Assembly: GCF_029167375.1 (NCBI RefSeq)
Contig: NZ_JARFTP010000038.1
Coordinates: 1 to 37,729 of the forward strand
Direction: 5' to 3'
Origin: Tsukamurella sp. 8F
Lineage (GTDB): Bacteria; Actinomycetota; Actinomycetes; Mycobacteriales; Mycobacteriaceae
DNA length: 37,729 nucleotides
The notes beneath the pieces were generated by a model. It was given only the letters and a program-made list of their open reading frames with translations, did no database searches and was not told the DNA's origin. Position numbers and translations under genes: made by a program. Shown here one piece after another: positions 13,176 to 19,934 of this stretch. Each line of letters opens with the position of its first letter. Position 1 is the first letter of the stretch.

Positions 13176-14498
13176 TCAGGCCTGATCGCAGAGAGCGCCC
13201 GAGGCGTCACAGCTGACGCCGACGCGCTCCCTCTCGATCCGTACGCTCAGCAAGGCGGCCGCGATGGCCGCGGTCACCAGTCCTACGCCAGCCCATACCG
13301 GGGCGACCGCGCCCGCGGCGAGCGCCACGCCGCCCACCCATGGCCCGAGCGCGTTGCCGACGTTGAACGCCGATACGTTCACGGACGCCGCAAGAGTCGG
13401 CGCATCGCCGGCCATTCCGATCACGCGGCCGTTCAGTGCGGCCGCGATGGAGAACGCCGCGGCTCCCAGCAGGAAGAGCACGACGAGAGTCGCGGGTGCC
13501 CAGTGTGCGAGGGACGCGAGCAGGACGAGCGCCACAGCGGTCGCGACGAGGCTGCCCAGCACGTTGGCGAGCATCCCGCGGTCTGCGATGCGCCCTCCCA
13601 CCACGACACCGGCCAGGCTGCCCAGCCCGAACAGCAGCAGCGCCAACGGCACACGCGAAGCCGGCACGCCGGAGACGTCGGTGAGCAGCACTGCGACGTA
13701 CGTGTAGGCGCAGAACACGGCGGCCTGGAACAGCGCCGTCGTCGCGAGAGCCACCCACAACCGAGGGCGGCGGAACGCGGCCGACTCGCGGCTCAGGAGC
13801 TCACGCATCGGTACCGCGGCGGGCCGCGTGTCAGACACCGCGGCGGGCCGCGCATCGGGCACCGCGGCGGGCCGCGCATCAGACACCGCGGCGGGTCGCG
13901 CATCGGGCACCGCGGCGGGCCGGCCGTCGCCGGGGACGCTCACGTGGACCAGGACCGCGCAGCCGGCGGCCACGACGGCGACCGTCGCCAGCGACGCCCG
14001 CCATCCGAAGGTGCCTCCGATCCACGTACCGACAGGAACACCGAGCACCGTCGCGATGGTGAGGCCACCGACGACGACGGCCATCGCCCGCGCGAGCGCG
14101 TCCGGTCCGGCGAGGCGCGCGGCCATCACGGCCGCCATTGCCCAGTAGGTCGCCGCCGCGACAGCGGCGATGACTCGCGTCACGACGAGCACCGTGAAAC
14201 CGTCCACCAGTAGTGGCACCACATGCGCGGCGACGAACACGGCCAGCGCCCCGACGGCCGTGGCGCGGCGCGGCAGCCGCAGGGTCGCGAGCGTCATCAG
14301 AGGCGCGCCGACGAGCATGCCGATCGCGAACGCGGTCACGAGCCACCCCGCGGTCGCCACCGACACGTGCTGGTCGGATGCGACCTCGGGCAGGATCCCC
14401 GCGAGCAGGAACTCGCTGGTCCCGACCGCGAACGTGCCGATGGCGAGCGCGTACACGGCGCGCGGGACCGCCGTCCTGTTCTGGATCATATGTTCCAT
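13176..14498 (-). CDS. DHA1-family MFS efflux transporter with a repeat-expanded central loop
   Basis: A 440-residue transporter with 12 predicted helices of the Cmx/arabinose-efflux DHA1 group (GTSEFLLAGILPEVA in TM1, GAPLMTLATLRLPRR in the TM2-3 loop). The cytoplasmic loop between TM6 and TM7 holds about five copies of an 8-residue repeat, A-R-P-A-A-V-(P/S)-D, not part of the normal family. The gene follows a TetR gene on the same strand after 45 bases, so the pair is probably a regulated drug-efflux unit; the substrate is unknown. The first ATG (14498) has only a distant AAAGG, and a second ATG lies three codons in. Confidence 0.9.
   Translation of the reverse strand: MEHMIQNRTAVPRAVYALAIGTFAVGTSEFLLAGILPEVASDQHVSVATAGWLVTAFAIGMLVGAPLMTLATLRLPRRATAVGALAVFVAAHVVPLLVDGFTVLVVTRVIAAVAAATYWAMAAVMAARLAGPDALARAMAVVVGGLTIATVLGVPVGTWIGGTFGWRASLATVAVVAAGCAVLVHVSVPGDGRPAAVPDARPAAVSDARPAAVPDARPAAVSDTRPAAVPMRELLSRESAAFRRPRLWVALATTALFQAAVFCAYTYVAVLLTDVSGVPASRVPLALLLFGLGSLAGVVVGGRIADRGMLANVLGSLVATAVALVLLASLAHWAPATLVVLFLLGAAAFSIAAALNGRVIGMAGDAPTLAASVNVSAFNVGNALGPWVGGVALAAGAVAPVWAGVGLVTAAIAAALLSVRIERERVGVSCDASGALCDQA
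13813..13924 (-). repeat. Five tandem 24-bp repeats inside the MFS coding sequence
   Basis: The core ACCGCGGCGGGC, or close variants, starts at 13813, 13837, 13861, 13885 and 13909, exactly 24 bases apart, so reading frame is kept. Each unit encodes Arg-Pro-Ala-Ala-Val plus a Pro/Ser-Asp-Ala spacer. The units differ at a few positions. The run sits in the cytoplasmic loop between the two halves of the transporter. Confidence 0.9.
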
Positions 14499-14503
14499 AA
14501 TCG

Positions 14504-14513
14504 AGGCATGCCT
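14504..14513. promoter_or_regulatory. Palindrome upstream of the MFS gene
   Basis: AGGCATGCCT is a perfect 10-bp palindrome six bases before the MFS start codon, between the TetR gene and its likely target. It is a possible operator for the TetR protein, but a short one. Confidence 0.25.
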
Positions 14514-14543
14514 TTCGGATCGGTGGTTCTTCGAGCCCGCGGT

Positions 14544-15131
14544 TCAGCGGGGGCGGAGCAGCGCCATGAGGGCCCGGACAGCGCGCGGACCAGCGGCCGG
14601 GTCACCGTCGACCCGGGCCGACACCTGCAGACCGTTGATCGCGGCGTGCACCACGGCAGCCAGCTCGTCCGGCGTGGCGTCGTCGGCGATCGAGCCGTCC
14701 TCCTGCCCGCGCCGGATCAGGGAGGCGAGCAGTTCCTGGAACGCCCGAAGGTTGTCCCGCGCCATCCGCGCGATATCGGCCTCCGAGGGTCCGATCTCGA
14801 CTGCGGCGTTGATCACCAGACAGCCGCGGAGGTCAGGTGTCGCCCGCTGATCCGCGAGCGTCTCCGCAAGCAGTTGCTCCAAGAGTTCCCGGCCCGACCC
14901 CGGCCCCTCCAGAGCGGCTCGCCGATCGAGCTCCTTCTGATCGCCGTAGCGGGTCATACACCTGCGGTACAGATCGGCCTTGCAGTCGAACGTGTTGTAC
15001 AGGCTGCTGCGGGACAGTCCGGTTGCGCGACACAGGTCGTCCGTCGAGGTGCCGGCGTACGAACGTGAGCGGAACGTCTCGACCGCGGCATCCAGCGCCG
15101 CGGTCTCGTCGAAGTTCCTCGGCCTGCCCAC
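14544..15131 (-). CDS. TetR-family transcriptional regulator
   Basis: A 195-residue repressor. The N-terminal DNA-binding domain has the AcrR/QacR-like layout: GRPRNFDETAALDAAVETF, then the recognition part TSTDDLCRATGLSRSSLYNTF with the K-A-D-L-Y-R-R end. The C-terminal ligand domain (LVINAAVEIGPSE) fits the TetR C-terminal type common near drug pumps. The frame stays open further upstream, but GTG 15131 has AAGG eight bases ahead and gives the usual M-G-R-P start. It probably controls the MFS pump immediately downstream; the effector is unknown. Confidence 0.9.
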   Translation of the reverse strand: MGRPRNFDETAALDAAVETFRSRSYAGTSTDDLCRATGLSRSSLYNTFDCKADLYRRCMTRYGDQKELDRRAALEGPGSGRELLEQLLAETLADQRATPDLRGCLVINAAVEIGPSEADIARMARDNLRAFQELLASLIRRGQEDGSIADDATPDELAAVVHAAINGLQVSARVDGDPAAGPRAVRALMALLRPR

Positions 15132-15147
15132 GGCGACGACCTTAGCA

Positions 15148-15161
15148 GTTATGTACTCAAC
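15148..15161. promoter_or_regulatory. Imperfect palindrome upstream of tetR
   Basis: GTT-AT-GTAC-TC-AAC is symmetric at 10 of 14 positions and sits 17 bases before the tetR start, where an autorepressor would bind. No convincing -35/-10 pair was found around it. Confidence 0.3.
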
Positions 15162-15188
15162 GTTCCAATTCGTCGCCGACGCACACAC

Positions 15189-15242: not shown

Positions 15243-18200
15243 TCAGCGGCGGGCGCCGACGCGCTGCTGACCGCGCCCGAGGGTCTCCGTCTTGTAGGCG
15301 TCGTAGTCGCCCGCCGACACCGCGACGCGGATGCCCTCCACCAGCGCGACGAGGAAGCGCTCGTTGTGCTCGGTCGCGAGCACAGGCGCGAGCGGATCGC
15401 CCACCGCGAACAGGTGGTGCAGGTACGCGCGGGCGGGTCCCTGCGCTCCGGGCTCCGCATCCGGGTCCACCGGCCGCACGTCGGCCCGGTATGCCGCCTC
15501 GGTGACGTCGATCCGGCCCGCCCAGGTGAGCAGCACACCGCGTGCGGCGGCGCGACCCGACTCGGAGCCGTCGAACAGGTCGACGCCGGCTTCGAACGCC
15601 GCGAACACGTCGGCCGGTTCGACGACGCCCGGCAGGTACCGCGCGCGTCGCTCGTCCAGTTCGCCGATCGCCGCGACGAGCAGCTGCGTCTGGTCCGCTG
15701 CGTGGTCGATCCCGGCGATCCGGTAGCCACCGAAGCCGAGGCCGCCCGCGAACGTGTCCTCATCGTGCATCGCCTGCAGCTCACGCGCCGCGCGACGGCG
15801 CAGGTCCTCGGCATCGCCGCCGGTCACCACCGCCCACAGGGAGCGCGCCTCCGACCGCTGCGCGGCCTCCCAGTTGTGTTCGGCGAGGCCGCGGCGGGCC
15901 CACACCAGTGAGCGGTCGACCGCCTGCCGCGCGGCCGCCGGCGACGGCGCGGGTACGAGGGGCGGACTCAGGACGAACGCGACGTCCCCGCCGAGCAGGT
16001 GCGCCGAGCGCACTGCAGACTCTGGCGTGATCCGGCCGTCCTCGCCGTCCACGGGCGAGCGGAAGTCGATGCCGTCGTCGTCGACGCTCGCACCCTCCGT
16101 CGCGGCCGCGAGAGCCGCGCCCGGATTGGAGAACGTCGCGGCGGGCCACGACGTGAACGCGCCGAGCCCTCCGGCGGCCGAGACCACCTCGGCCCCCATC
16201 GCGTCGAGCAGGAAGGCATCGACGATCACCGCCCGGGCGCCTGATCGGCTCAGCGCCTCCGGAGCGACTCCACCCGATGCGGGCAGAAACGCAGGGGTCG
16301 GCACCGGTCCGTGCGGAGTCGCGAGGCTACCGGTCCGACCACGCGTCCCGTCGAGACGGCGGACCACATCGAGGCGCACCGGATCCGAGATGCCCTCGGC
16401 CTGCAGGCGGCCACGGGCCGCGGTCGAGCGGTAGTCGGTGCGCAGCGTCGACAGCTGCGCCGCGAGCGCACGGTTGTCGGCGCGCAGCTGCTCGATCGGG
16501 TCCGGTTCGACGCTGTCGGTAGTCGCGGCATCGAGAGCGGGGACGTCCGGCGTCTGGTCCGTGGCAGGCTCGGACGCGGGCGGGGGCGTATCCACCACCG
16601 CAGGTGCCACCACCACAGGTGCGGCCGCGGCGGCGTACGCGCGGGGGTCGCGCTTGGCCTCGTCCATCGCGGCGTGCACGGCCGCCTCCTGCGCGAGCGA
16701 GGCGTACTGCACGTCGGAGCCGCCCGTACCCGCGACCGCGACCGCGGCACCGGTCCCGGCAGCGGCACCGGTCCCGGCAGCGGCACCGGTCTCGGTTGCG
16801 GTACCGGTCTCGGTACCGGCCGCGGCGGAGGTGAAGCCTTCGGCGACAACTCCATCCGAGGCGGCGGAACCGGCGGGAGCCGGCGCACCGGCACCCTTGC
16901 GCTTGATGTGCGTAGGCGCGGCGAAGCACACCACGGCGAGGAAGCCGAGCACCAGAACCGCGGCGGGCAGGAAGATACTCGTGCCCATCGCCTTGGCGAA
17001 CGGCTCGAGGATGGCGTGCGGCACCGGGCCCGAGCTGGACTCGAGCGCCTCGGCGTTCACCGCATGCCCGGGTGAGGCCGCCGACAGCTTGTCCTCGAGC
17101 TGGTTCTGCATGAGGACGCCGACGGCCGCGGAGCCGAGCACGGCGCCGACCTGACGCGTCATGTTGTAGACGCCTGCACCGGCGCCTGCGAGCTGCATCG
17201 GCAGGTTGCGGGTCGCGGTCGCCGACAGCGGCGCCCACACGAAGGCGTTGCCGATGCCCATGACGGCGACCGGCACGATGATCTCGAAGACCGACGACGA
17301 CGGGCGCGCGACCGCGCCCAACCAGAAGTACGAGATCGCGGTGACGGCGAACCCGAACCCGGCGATGTAGCGCGGGTGCAGCCGGTCGGTGAGGCGTCCG
17401 GAGACCGGCGCCAGGAACCCGGACAGGACGGCGAGCGGAATCAACAGAAGCGCAGACCGCATGGGTGAGAGCCCCATCGAGACCTGCGCGAACAGCATCA
17501 GCGGGATGGACATACCCGTCATCGCGAAGCCCATGGTGGTGATGCCCACGTTCGCGAGGGTGAAGTTGCGGTCCTTGAACAGGGACAGGCTCATCAGCGG
17601 CTCGGGCGTGCGGGCCTCCCACCACACGAACACCACGAGCAGCACGACGCCCACGACGATCAGCGACCAGATGGAGATGGGCCCGGTGATCGTGCCCCAG
17701 TCGTACTTCTGCCCCTGCTGCAAGCCGTACGTGATGAGGAATAGACCGGCAGCGCTGAGCAGTATGCCCAGGTAGTCGATGCGGTGCTTGTGCGTCGGCA
17801 GGGTCGGCACCAACCACACGGCGAGCACGAAGGCGACGACGCCGACCGGCACATTGACGAAGAAGACCCACTTCCAACTGAAGGTATCCACCAGGAACCC
17901 GCCTGCCAGCGGGCCGACCAGGATTGCCACACCGGCCACCGAGCCCCACAGTGCCATCGCTGTACCGCGCTTCTCGGCAGGGAAGATCCGAGTGATGACC
18001 GCCATCGTCTGCGGTGTCATCAGGGCTGCGCCGATGCCCTGGACCACGCGGGCGACGATGAGCATCGTCACCGTGCCGGAAAGCCCGCACCAGGCCGACG
18101 ACCCGGTGAAGATCACGAGCCCGACGAGGTAGACCCACTTGGGCCCGAACATGTCTCCCAGGCGCCCGGACAACAGCAACGGAACGACGTAGGCGAGCAG

Positions 18201-18398
18201 GTAGCCGCTGGTCACCCACACGACACTGTTCAGGTCCGCATGCAGGTCCACCATGATCGAGTGGGTCGCGACCGACACGATCGTGGTGTCGACCAGGATC
18301 ATGAAGAAGCCGACCACCATCGCCCACAGGGCGGGCCAGGGGTGCACATGTCCCGTGCCGCTGCCGGGTGGTGCGGCCGGGGTGTCGAGCTTGGTCAT
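15243..18398 (-). CDS. DHA2-family MFS pump fused to a degenerate tRNA-guanine-transglycosylase-like domain
   Basis: One uninterrupted 1051-residue reading frame. Residues about 20-495 are a 14-helix DHA2 pump (GRLGDMFGPKWVYL, VVQGIGAALMTPQT, GPLAGGFLVDTFSWKWVFFVNVP). Residues 500-630 are a low-complexity Ala/Gly/Thr linker, and about 633-660 look coiled-coil (EQLRADNRALAAQLSTL). Residues about 688-1040 follow the order of queuine/archaeosine tRNA-ribosyltransferase: HGPVPTPAFLP, GGLGAFTSWPAA, IDFRSPVDGEDGRITPE, SLVWARRGL, RYLPGVVEPADVF, VDLFDGSESGR, RAYLHHLF, ATEHNERFL. The nucleophile-position Asp (Asp943) and zinc-position His (His1011) remain. The DSGGFQ, DECTP and VQGG base-recognition motifs and the CxCxxC zinc cysteines are gone, so exchange activity is doubtful. 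The tail should be cytoplasmic. The ATG overlaps the PadR stop (ATGA). Confidence 0.85.
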   Translation of the reverse strand: MTKLDTPAAPPGSGTGHVHPWPALWAMVVGFFMILVDTTIVSVATHSIMVDLHADLNSVVWVTSGYLLAYVVPLLLSGRLGDMFGPKWVYLVGLVIFTGSSAWCGLSGTVTMLIVARVVQGIGAALMTPQTMAVITRIFPAEKRGTAMALWGSVAGVAILVGPLAGGFLVDTFSWKWVFFVNVPVGVVAFVLAVWLVPTLPTHKHRIDYLGILLSAAGLFLITYGLQQGQKYDWGTITGPISIWSLIVVGVVLLVVFVWWEARTPEPLMSLSLFKDRNFTLANVGITTMGFAMTGMSIPLMLFAQVSMGLSPMRSALLLIPLAVLSGFLAPVSGRLTDRLHPRYIAGFGFAVTAISYFWLGAVARPSSSVFEIIVPVAVMGIGNAFVWAPLSATATRNLPMQLAGAGAGVYNMTRQVGAVLGSAAVGVLMQNQLEDKLSAASPGHAVNAEALESSSGPVPHAILEPFAKAMGTSIFLPAAVLVLGFLAVVCFAAPTHIKRKGAGAPAPAGSAASDGVVAEGFTSAAAGTETGTATETGAAAGTGAAAGTGAAVAVAGTGGSDVQYASLAQEAAVHAAMDEAKRDPRAYAAAAAPVVVAPAVVDTPPPASEPATDQTPDVPALDAATTDSVEPDPIEQLRADNRALAAQLSTLRTDYRSTAARGRLQAEGISDPVRLDVVRRLDGTRGRTGSLATPHGPVPTPAFLPASGGVAPEALSRSGARAVIVDAFLLDAMGAEVVSAAGGLGAFTSWPAATFSNPGAALAAATEGASVDDDGIDFRSPVDGEDGRITPESAVRSAHLLGGDVAFVLSPPLVPAPSPAAARQAVDRSLVWARRGLAEHNWEAAQRSEARSLWAVVTGGDAEDLRRRAARELQAMHDEDTFAGGLGFGGYRIAGIDHAADQTQLLVAAIGELDERRARYLPGVVEPADVFAAFEAGVDLFDGSESGRAAARGVLLTWAGRIDVTEAAYRADVRPVDPDAEPGAQGPARAYLHHLFAVGDPLAPVLATEHNERFLVALVEGIRVAVSAGDYDAYKTETLGRGQQRVGARR
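16746..16817 (-). repeat. Four tandem 18-bp repeats in the linker of the MFS-TGT fusion
   Basis: Units starting at 16746, 16764, 16782 and 16800 share the core ACCGGTCYCGG. Each adds six residues of the Ala-Gly-Thr-Gly type to the linker between pump and soluble domain. The unit size keeps the frame. Confidence 0.85.
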
Positions 18399-18988
18399 AG
18401 AGATTCCTCTCCGATCGCGGAGTGCGCGGGCCATTCGACGGCCCCCGCTTCGATGTCGTCGAGCAGAGCCCCGAGCCAGGCGATCTCGGACTCTCGTTGG
18501 GCGGCCATGTATTCGATGTCGAGCAGGATCACGCGCGGCTTCTGCGGCGCGAGGTCGGCGAGCGCACCGCGCAGCACGGCGGCATCGCGTTCGAGCACCT
18601 TCATGCGGCTCCGCAGGTGCTCGACCACCTCGCCGCGGTCCAGATCGTGTGCCTTGGACATCGCGACGGGGAACTCGGGGTACTCGATCGCGGGCGTCGC
18701 GAGCATCTCGCCCACCCGGCTGCGCAGGGCGTAGCGCCCGGCCCGTGTGATCCGGTAGGTGGTGCGCTCGGGCCGGTTCCCGTCTCGTTCGGTGCCTGCG
18801 GCCTCCACGAGTTCGGCCTCGGCCAGGCGGTTGACGGTGTGGTAGAGCGAACCGGGCTTCACCTTGACGATCACGTCCTCGCGACGGCCCATGAGGGTTT
18901 GGAACATCTCGTACGGGTGCATCTCCCGCTCTGTGAGCAGGGAGAGTGCCGCTATACCCAGCGGGGTCAACTTGGTCCCACCCAACAT
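18395..18988 (-). CDS. PadR-family transcriptional regulator
   Basis: A 197-residue regulator. The N-terminal winged helix is PadR-like: LTPLGIAALSLLTEREMHPYEMFQTL, then VKPGSLYHTVNRLAEAELVE and the wing with ERTTYRITRAGR. The C-terminal part is a long helical Vir/PadR dimerisation domain. ATG 18988 has GAGAGGG just upstream and matches the family start; the frame is open further upstream but lacks PadR features. The stop overlaps the start of the MFS-TGT fusion (ATGA), so the two are translationally coupled and the pump is the likely target. The ligand is unknown. Confidence 0.92.
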   Translation of the reverse strand: MLGGTKLTPLGIAALSLLTEREMHPYEMFQTLMGRREDVIVKVKPGSLYHTVNRLAEAELVEAAGTERDGNRPERTTYRITRAGRYALRSRVGEMLATPAIEYPEFPVAMSKAHDLDRGEVVEHLRSRMKVLERDAAVLRGALADLAPQKPRVILLDIEYMAAQRESEIAWLGALLDDIEAGAVEWPAHSAIGEESL

Positions 18989-19046
18989 CCGTCCCTCTCC
19001 CGGGCAGAGCCCGTTCCACACCACGGGACCACCGTACCGCGCCGAA

Positions 19047-19062
19047 TACTCCACGCGGAATA
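19047..19062. promoter_or_regulatory. Candidate PadR operator
   Basis: TACTCC-ACGC-GGAATA is an inverted repeat with one mismatch, about 60 bases upstream of the padR start, and is framed by CCGAA and TTCGG. It is the only clear dyad in this 94-base gap. Confidence 0.35.
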
Positions 19063-19082
19063 GTTCGGTCAGGTGATCTACT

Positions 19083-19934
19083 TCACCGCTGCACCGCACG
19101 CATATCGGTGACGCGCCAGGCCTTCGCGGCCTTATCGGTCTTGCCACACGACGGCGGCCGCGGCGACAGCCGCTCCGATGCGACGGTGACATCCCATGCA
19201 CGGCCGTCGACATGGGTGACCCGGGCACGATCACCGTCGGCGGCCACCGCGAGGGCCTCGACCGGCGCCGGTCCGAGGACTCCGCGGACCGCGACCTCGG
19301 CGACCTGGCCCGCCGCGGACGTGGAGGACCTGCCACGCAGACTGTCGGGCACGACGTATCCGGCACGTGCGGCATCGAATACGGCCTTCGCAGACTCCCC
19401 CGTCACGCGCCCGTACGTGTAGCCGGTCGGCAGCACGATGAGCACGGGGGCGAACCGGTGCCCACCGGTATGCGAGCACTCCCACACCACGGGATCGGCG
19501 TAGCAACCGGCGAGAGCCGCCGCGACCGGGCGTCCGCCCACGGCGCAGCACACGTCGCGCTTGCCGTGGGCGCACACCAGCGCGACGGGCCCGGCTACGT
19601 CCCCGCCCTCTGGATCCAGGGCCGGGATGTCGGCATAGTCCATCACGGTGAACCGGCGCAGCCGCGATCGGCCCGGCACCGACGAGGCGATGAACACGGC
19701 TCGGCCGCTGGGTGGCGGTACCCGCCCGGGCCGACGGATCAGCAACACCCGCAACGCGTTCCTCTGCGCGAACTCCCGGATCGCGGCCGACGTGGCGGGG
19801 TCGAACGTGTCACCCTTCAGCACGTCACGGCTCCAGCCGCCGGCTGCCTCGATGCACAGCCAACCGGTCTCGGTAGCCGCTGTTCCGGGGAGCGGCTCGT
19901 CCACGAACGATGAGCAGCGGGGTACGTCGGACAT
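19083..19934 (-). CDS. Sucrase/ferredoxin-like family protein
   Basis: A 283-residue protein of the sucraseferredoxin-like family, a thioredoxin-fold group that probably binds an iron-sulfur cluster. The diagnostic stretches are CAHGKRDVCCAVGG and WECSHTGGHRFAPVLIVLPTG, which supply the Cys and His pattern. It begins with a conserved RCSSF motif. No role has been firmly assigned to bacterial members; electron transfer is a plausible guess. The ATG at 19934 has no ribosome binding site; TAACGT lies six bases upstream, so the message is probably leaderless. It is divergent from the carboxypeptidase gene. Confidence 0.85.
   Translation of the reverse strand: MSDVPRCSSFVDEPLPGTAATETGWLCIEAAGGWSRDVLKGDTFDPATSAAIREFAQRNALRVLLIRRPGRVPPPSGRAVFIASSVPGRSRLRRFTVMDYADIPALDPEGGDVAGPVALVCAHGKRDVCCAVGGRPVAAALAGCYADPVVWECSHTGGHRFAPVLIVLPTGYTYGRVTGESAKAVFDAARAGYVVPDSLRGRSSTSAAGQVAEVAVRGVLGPAPVEALAVAADGDRARVTHVDGRAWDVTVASERLSPRPPSCGKTDKAAKAWRVTDMRAVQR

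Follow-up and report, generated by a model that had tools for sequence, protein, structure and literature searches.

Transporters carrying a C-terminal bacterial tRNA-guanine transglycosylase (TGT) domain were reported in 2024 as unique to the genus Tsukamurella, namely the MFS-TGT protein Tpau_0550 (D5USC3) and the MMPL-TGT protein Tpau_4044 (D5UNC0), and such fusions serve, in the parts of that paper covered here, as leads for precursor transporters (PMC11130926). The gene analyzed here lies on the minus strand of a 37,729-nucleotide stretch of Tsukamurella sp. 8F (contig NZ_JARFTP010000038.1, positions 1 to 37,729; termed the window) and, as shown at the level of sequence, fuses a DHA2-type MFS exporter to a C-terminal module in which a short coiled coil precedes a degenerate TGT domain. 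With the two reported proteins it shares the combination of an exporter-type transporter and a C-terminal bacterial TGT domain within one genus, and the statement of an earlier sequence-based annotation (the original prediction) that no described protein joins these families is incorrect in view of their publication. Unlike in Tpau_0550, the exporter belongs to another MFS family and the tail is a recent gain; moreover, TGT pocket decay, the coil, and repeated capture are not described in the covered parts of the 2024 report (PMC11130926). Further papers on these fusions were not found in a literature search judged from its listings, with subscription papers and preprints outside it. The architecture itself is already known, while the lack of any separate tgt gene among the findings from 16 genus genomes, the spread of one module over five exporters, tails that are constrained yet pocket-eroded, and an older loss of the zinc cysteines are new here. 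The case is a series, richer than described, and not a single odd fusion.

Architecture and active site of the fusion

The frame from position 18398 to 15243 encodes 1051 residues plus a stop codon with zero internal stops, and unites MFS pump, linker, coil, and TGT as originally predicted. MFS_1 matches residues 28-422 (Pfam, E 4.8e-57), and the head lies above the NCBIfam cut-off for DHA2 efflux proteins (TIGR00711, 312.8 vs. 230.2 bits), in agreement with the predicted pump type; relative to DHA2/EmrB exporters, the protein is about 550 residues longer. A simple hydropathy scan of the head returned overlapping segments, which leaves the 14 helices of the original prediction, the number expected for DHA2, a putative count. 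The coil profile matches at 16365-16505 with E 1.9e-25. The GC content at third codon positions amounts to 0.92 in the MFS part, 0.80 in the linker, 0.93 in the coil, and 0.88 in the TGT part, and since the latter is near the value of the head, the tail still looks coding. A scan of the named genomes with the whole protein yielded two remote Mycolicibacterium MFS matches.

The tail matches PF01702 at residues 687-1040 (E 9.9e-61, 206.2 bits vs. a cut-off of 26.3) and passes the cut-off of the TGT superfamily (TIGR00449, 164.8 vs. 47.6) while missing that of the Tgt equivalog (TIGR00430, 165.3 vs. 306.75). The PF01702 and TIGR00449 scores place the TGT match far beyond chance, so that the fusion reading stands after the profile comparison that the original prediction had proposed. 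A sequence search of solved structures with the tail finds bacterial TGT at about 1e-45 in a full-length alignment. The AlphaFold2 model of the tail (mean predicted local distance difference test score, pLDDT, 92.0; predicted TM-score, pTM, 0.91) has Zymomonas mobilis TGT as its best Foldseek match (3uvi, E 1.3e-34, TM 0.85/0.88). By this model, the TGT-type barrel fold is retained; for one of the more decayed tails of the genus (class C, L048; see below), the corresponding values are pLDDT 84.8 and pTM 0.86.

We number active-site residues according to Z. mobilis TGT, in which Asp280 was confirmed by counting along the printed chain, while the roles of the other pocket residues, including base recognition by Asp102, Asp156, and Gln203, are taken as given. 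In the alignment, Asp943 and His1011 are kept at positions 280 and 349, as had been noted before, and so is Arg949 at 286. The base-recognition motifs are lost, also in line with the earlier claim: Asp102 is replaced by Asn758, Asp156 by Ser811, and Gln203 by Thr859, the Phe106/Gln107 positions are deleted, and Ala952 occupies position 289. Consequently, the tail shares fold, full-length alignment, and the Asp280 and His349 positions with bacterial Tgt, but departs from it by the changed or lost base-recognition residues, the missing zinc cysteines, and the fusion to an exporter. Retention over 16 pocket positions is 0.31, compared with 0.46 when all conserved positions across the domain are counted, where the reference comprises residues conserved in class A (see below) and in zinc-less stand-alone Tgt, with the divergent stand-alone row L082 left out. 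Judged by sequence, the active site is eroded more than the fold, and the term pseudo-enzyme used in the original prediction is apt for the tail.

At the zinc site, His1011 alone remains and the CxCxxC cysteines are gone. Their absence had been noted correctly, but it is not a sign of decay: Asp102, Asp156, Gln203, and Asp280 are present in 21 of 21 stand-alone Tgt proteins of other genera, of which 10 keep the motif and 11 are without it (L075, L077, L078, L079, L081, L082, L083, L085, L086, L088, and L089). The cysteine loss is therefore older than the tails and a weak criterion for an active Tgt in this group, and the sequences point to a zinc-free Tgt lineage in the order.

Distribution of the coil-TGT module

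PF01702 matches occur in all 16 genus genomes, with three such proteins in the window's own genome, and a separate tgt gene was seen in none of the 16. Class A joins an MMPL exporter to a TGT with intact tabulated pocket residues; the Cys158 position of this TGT is occupied by Leu, a feature shared with most stand-alone relatives. It forms a single frame in 14 of 16 genomes, the exceptions being a broken frame in G014 and a contig end inside the TGT part in G007. Class B, an MFS exporter with a decayed TGT, is likewise a single frame in 14 of 16 genomes, and its least decayed member is the copy in the window's genome (L037, pocket retention 0.56). Class C combines another MMPL exporter with a more decayed TGT; its tails are found in half of the genomes (8/16), with head and tail on different contigs in G003. 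A third MFS exporter with a tail (L052) occurs in G013 only, and the window-type fusion in the window's genome and in G007, where the MFS orthologue (83%) leads into the same coil and TGT start until the contig end. The coil and TGT module is carried by five distinct exporters of the genus, and the coil is present in each of the five types. Tpau_0550 presumably belongs to class B and Tpau_4044 to class A or C, an assignment made without sequence comparison. In G005, the class C MMPL head (G005:C3:3866369-3872234) is split into two pieces about 3.7 kb apart, so that the gene there looks interrupted; the frame with the TGT tail is open.

Outside the genus, a family-wide draw contains TGT in 175 of 186 genomes, with a single match in 173. 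TGT fusions may exist there as well, as the matches listed include a few long frames (e.g., 1066 residues in G218).

The coil profile finds 41 places in the 16 genus genomes, all within tail-bearing frames. This search found no coil without TGT in the genus, which dismisses the coil as a separate mobile part. An order-wide search of 249 genomes, in which 27 candidates were scored per genome shown and hence part of all candidates, returned the three genus members drawn and one weak partial match (6.8e-5, G272). The heptads agree across the four tabulated examples (a = I/L, N, L, Y; d = L, L, L), and the Asn is unchanged in 10 of 10 aligned rows. An Asn at a heptad "a" position favors parallel pairing.

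Origin of the fusions and gene neighborhood

Of the 21 stand-alone loci read, 4, representing four genera, carry separate tgt and MMPL genes as direct neighbors of equal orientation; the two genes overlap in L077 and lie within about 130 bases of each other in L086, L088, and L089. In three further loci (L080, L085, and L093), an MMPL gene is located within 7 kb of tgt, and none was seen in the stretches read for the remaining 14. The functional link between tgt and MMPL is older than the fusion. Class A would most simply originate from a housekeeping tgt that fused to the adjoining MMPL exporter gene, with the coil arising at the joint; inspection by eye revealed no coil at the ends of seven MMPL or at the starts of seven Tgt from neighboring loci. 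Match positions in G035 hint at a fifth such neighborhood (among the matches listed). MmpL3 is the best solved-structure match of the class A MMPL, yet at only 161 bits; orthology is therefore not claimed.

In a maximum-likelihood tree of 61 TGT domains, for which the program flagged WIN, L082, and L040 as long branches and the fold alignment used 56 of the 61 rows, genus tails and stand-alone Tgt are split at 100/100. The window's tail is most similar to L037 (50% identity) and its long branch groups with class C at 92/56, which leaves classes A, B, and C as candidate sources.

Identity among the three types of MFS head (window, class B, and L052) is only 23-30%, and each of them has closer tail-less relatives, which excludes a single ancestral MFS-TGT fusion followed by duplication. 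The window's head has orthologues at 68-74% in 14 of the 15 other genus genomes (among the matches listed), away from PF01702 places, and the translated orthologues of G012, G008, and G015 stop soon after the MFS part or its last helix. These tail-less orthologues indicate a gain of the tail in the lineage of the window's genome and its nearest sampled relative G007. The original prediction had named separate genes in relatives as evidence against a fusion; the exporter does stand alone in these 14 genomes, while the nearest relative has the same join. Outside the genus, class B heads are matched at 54-67% in at least 32 of 45 genomes, and none of these matches lies at a listed TGT place (among the matches listed). 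A whole-gene duplication of class A is disfavored as the source of class C: G011 encodes an orthologue of the class C head without a tail (68%, 1021 bits), and the class C head matches stand-alone MMPL proteins of other genera with up to 619 bits, compared with at most 489 for class A heads (both among the matches listed). The L052 head has tail-less relatives at 49-50% (among the matches listed). Tail-less orthologues or closer tail-less relatives were found for every head type except A.

The coordinates are compiled in the table below. The fusion begins with an ATG that overlaps the last bases of the PadR gene located upstream; the real start of this PadR gene probably lies further inside the listed frame 18395-19375. 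A PadR gene adjoins the exporter in all 15 genus loci, among them that of G007. Longer neighborhoods were read for five out of 14 MFS loci without a tail; all five have sdhA-sdhB on one side and PadR, Suc_Fer-like, and D-Ala-D-Ala carboxypeptidase-like genes on the other, as does the window, where we take the sdh and carboxypeptidase names as presumed. Between the fusion and sdhB, the window contains genes for a TetR regulator and for another MFS protein (13176-15188), both without a match in the short exporter loci or the five longer genus stretches; the flank beside the tail thus differs from the tail-less loci. A 24-bp tandem repeat with 4.6 copies (13804-13922) lies inside this other MFS gene (13176-14498, minus strand) and encodes a repeated DARPAAV in a loop.

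Table. Features of the fusion locus and the class A locus
Feature	Position	Strand	Basis
Whole gene: MFS exporter, linker, coil, and degenerate TGT tail, 1051 residues	15243..18398	-	open frame, Pfam, NCBIfam
MFS exporter part, residues 1-500, DHA2/EmrB type	16899..18398	-	MFS_1, TIGR00711 above cut-off, genus orthologues 68-83%
Low-complexity linker, residues 501-634	16497..16898	-	sequence
18-bp tandem repeat in linker	16744-16813	-	repeat search
Coiled coil, residues 635-658, IEQLRADNRALAAQLSTLRTDYRS; heptad a = I, N, L, Y, d = L, L, L	16425..16496	-	heptads, coil profile
TGT-fold tail, residues 664-1051; Pfam match 15279-16340	15246..16409	-	PF01702, fold
Codon of Asp943, nucleophile Asp280 position	15570..15572	-	alignment
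Codon of His1011, zinc ligand His349 position	15366..15368	-	alignment
PadR-family regulator, upstream, overlapping the fusion start codon	18395..19375	-	PF03551
Class A locus	L036:6875-10942	-	MMPL and catalytic-type Tgt in one frame

Constraint on the tails and their possible role

Selection on heads and tails was estimated as the ratio of nonsynonymous to synonymous substitution rates (dN/dS, Nei-Gojobori) for 15 hand-picked pairs with crude head borders, one head comparison skipped, and the window's own tail not among them. Class B tails range from 0.09 to 0.20 (7 pairs; heads 0.05-0.20) and class C tails from 0.19 to 0.30 (4 pairs) vs. 0.05-0.06 for class C heads (3 pairs), while class A tails lie at 0.01-0.05 in three pairs, the most distant pair reaching 0.25 (heads 0.08-0.40). 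All 11 class B and C pairs remain well under 1, and by this measure their tails are under purifying selection. In the window's tail, retention falls from 0.80 in the coil through 0.78 in the C-terminal helix and 0.61 in alphaE to 0.31 in the pocket and 0.15 in the beta1alpha1 loop-helix.

The spread of the module over five exporters, the constrained class B and C tails, the kept coil, and the kept fold lead us to favor, tentatively, an assembly reading, in which the window's tail may be a pseudo-enzyme module that assembles or regulates exporters. Copies of coil and TGT would have been attached to further exporters after the class A fusion and would then have lost the active site. On the inner membrane face, the coil and the C-terminal TGT helices could link the exporter to a partner, either another copy of itself or a different exporter with a tail, the catalytic-type MMPL-Tgt among them. 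The coil would do most of the pairing or docking, the TGT fold would provide a body that may pair with a second one, and the tail would serve assembly, placement, or gating and neither catalysis nor base sensing. In outline, such a role would resemble that of eukaryotic QTRT2, the accessory subunit of the queuine transglycosylase and inactive partner of QTRT1, which is likewise a TGT-fold subunit without a full active site, the pairing of the tail being proposed. The match to QTRT2 is weak (E 2.6e-10 to 4.1e-10), whereas QTRT1 chains match the tail far better (about 1e-36 to 1e-34), and we know of no QTRT2 fused to a transporter.

The known dimer interface provides mixed evidence. In Z. mobilis TGT, the dimer hot spot consists of Phe92, Trp326, Tyr330, and His333, according to the parts of the study covered (PMC5395182). 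The window's tail keeps Phe748, Tyr992, and His995 at hot-spot positions, and Tyr330 and His333 are each retained in 39 of 40 genus rows. Several observations weigh against the assembly reading: Position 326 holds Tyr or Phe in class A but Pro988 in the window's tail, and 7 of 8 class C rows lack an aromatic residue there; none of the 15 class B rows retains Phe92; the beta1alpha1 loop-helix, a dimer element, is the least retained part of the window's tail; and alphaE retention reaches only 0.43 in class C, so that the known dimer elements are only partly kept. In addition, class C tails evolve at several times the rate of their heads, the coil is short with three and a half heptads, the better retention of coil and C-terminal helix may follow from folding alone, and the partner of the tail is a proposal drawn from sequence.

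The main rival holds that 3' ends of MMPL-tgt copies were joined to exporter genes by recombination and persist as harmless passengers, folded and functionless. The decayed pocket, the pace of class C tails, and the same exporter without a tail in 14 of the 15 other genus genomes (among the matches listed) would fit this explanation, but the tail dN/dS values of all 11 class B and C pairs, the single-frame state of class B in 14 of 16 genomes, and the presence of the module, each time with its coil, on five distinct exporters argue against it, and we consider it rather unlikely. That the tail binds a nucleotide, nucleobase, or tRNA via a changed pocket and thereby gates the exporter appears improbable: barrel fold, Asp943, and Arg949 are retained, but the pocket is the second least kept set in the window's tail, undercut only by the loop-helix, and the base-recognition positions are without exception changed or deleted. 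This loss disfavors sensing of a 7-deazapurine or nucleoside, the signal named in the original prediction, whereas the tail may gate or regulate the exporter from the inner side of the membrane, with base recognition unlikely as the signal.

A role in uptake, in which the fused transporters import queuine or preQ1 and pass it to TGT, was supposed in the covered parts of the 2024 paper, which also list MMPL as a high-scoring neighbor of queuosine-salvage genes, in keeping with its fusion logic (PMC11130926). QueA is absent from all 16 genus genomes, and the base must therefore be salvaged; however, a QPTR-family gene (PF02592) is present in all 16, which renders queuine import by a fusion unnecessary. 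Besides, the window's head falls into an efflux subfamily with tail-less orthologues as the rule, the base pocket of its tail is mostly lost, and an MMPL of C. propinquum did not restore preQ1 uptake in E. coli, a result for which the authors do not exclude poor expression, as stated in the covered parts of the same paper (PMC11130926). We regard uptake as highly improbable. A spurious long frame or an assembly join has a negligible chance of explaining the fusion. Although high-GC DNA holds many long chance frames, the independent G007 assembly contains the same join from the MFS orthologue to coil and TGT start, the other fusions of the genus occur in independent assemblies, and the published report, in its covered parts, derives from other data (PMC11130926), so that the high-GC-frame artefact is rejected on independent copies.

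In a wider form of the assembly reading, which we regard as doubtful, the genus would have turned its housekeeping Tgt into a membrane docking system, with a catalytic-type Tgt on an MMPL exporter and copies devoid of the active site, each with the same coil, on at least four other exporters, pairing with it or with each other and tying export systems, and possibly tRNA queuosine modification, into one membrane assembly. Given that no separate tgt was found in the genus, it becomes a testable question whether queuosine is put into tRNA at the membrane and whether export depends on it. A transporter-TGT fusion need not indicate a queuine transporter, although candidates have been picked that way in the covered parts of earlier work (PMC11130926). 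The fusions represent a capture series of one enzyme-derived domain by unrelated exporters, from nearly genus-wide through half of the genus to two genomes and one genome, in which orthologues lacking the tail at the same locus provide built-in controls. The series is suggestive of an old enzyme put to new use as a connector or regulator and shows a route by which a housekeeping RNA enzyme becomes a reusable accessory part.

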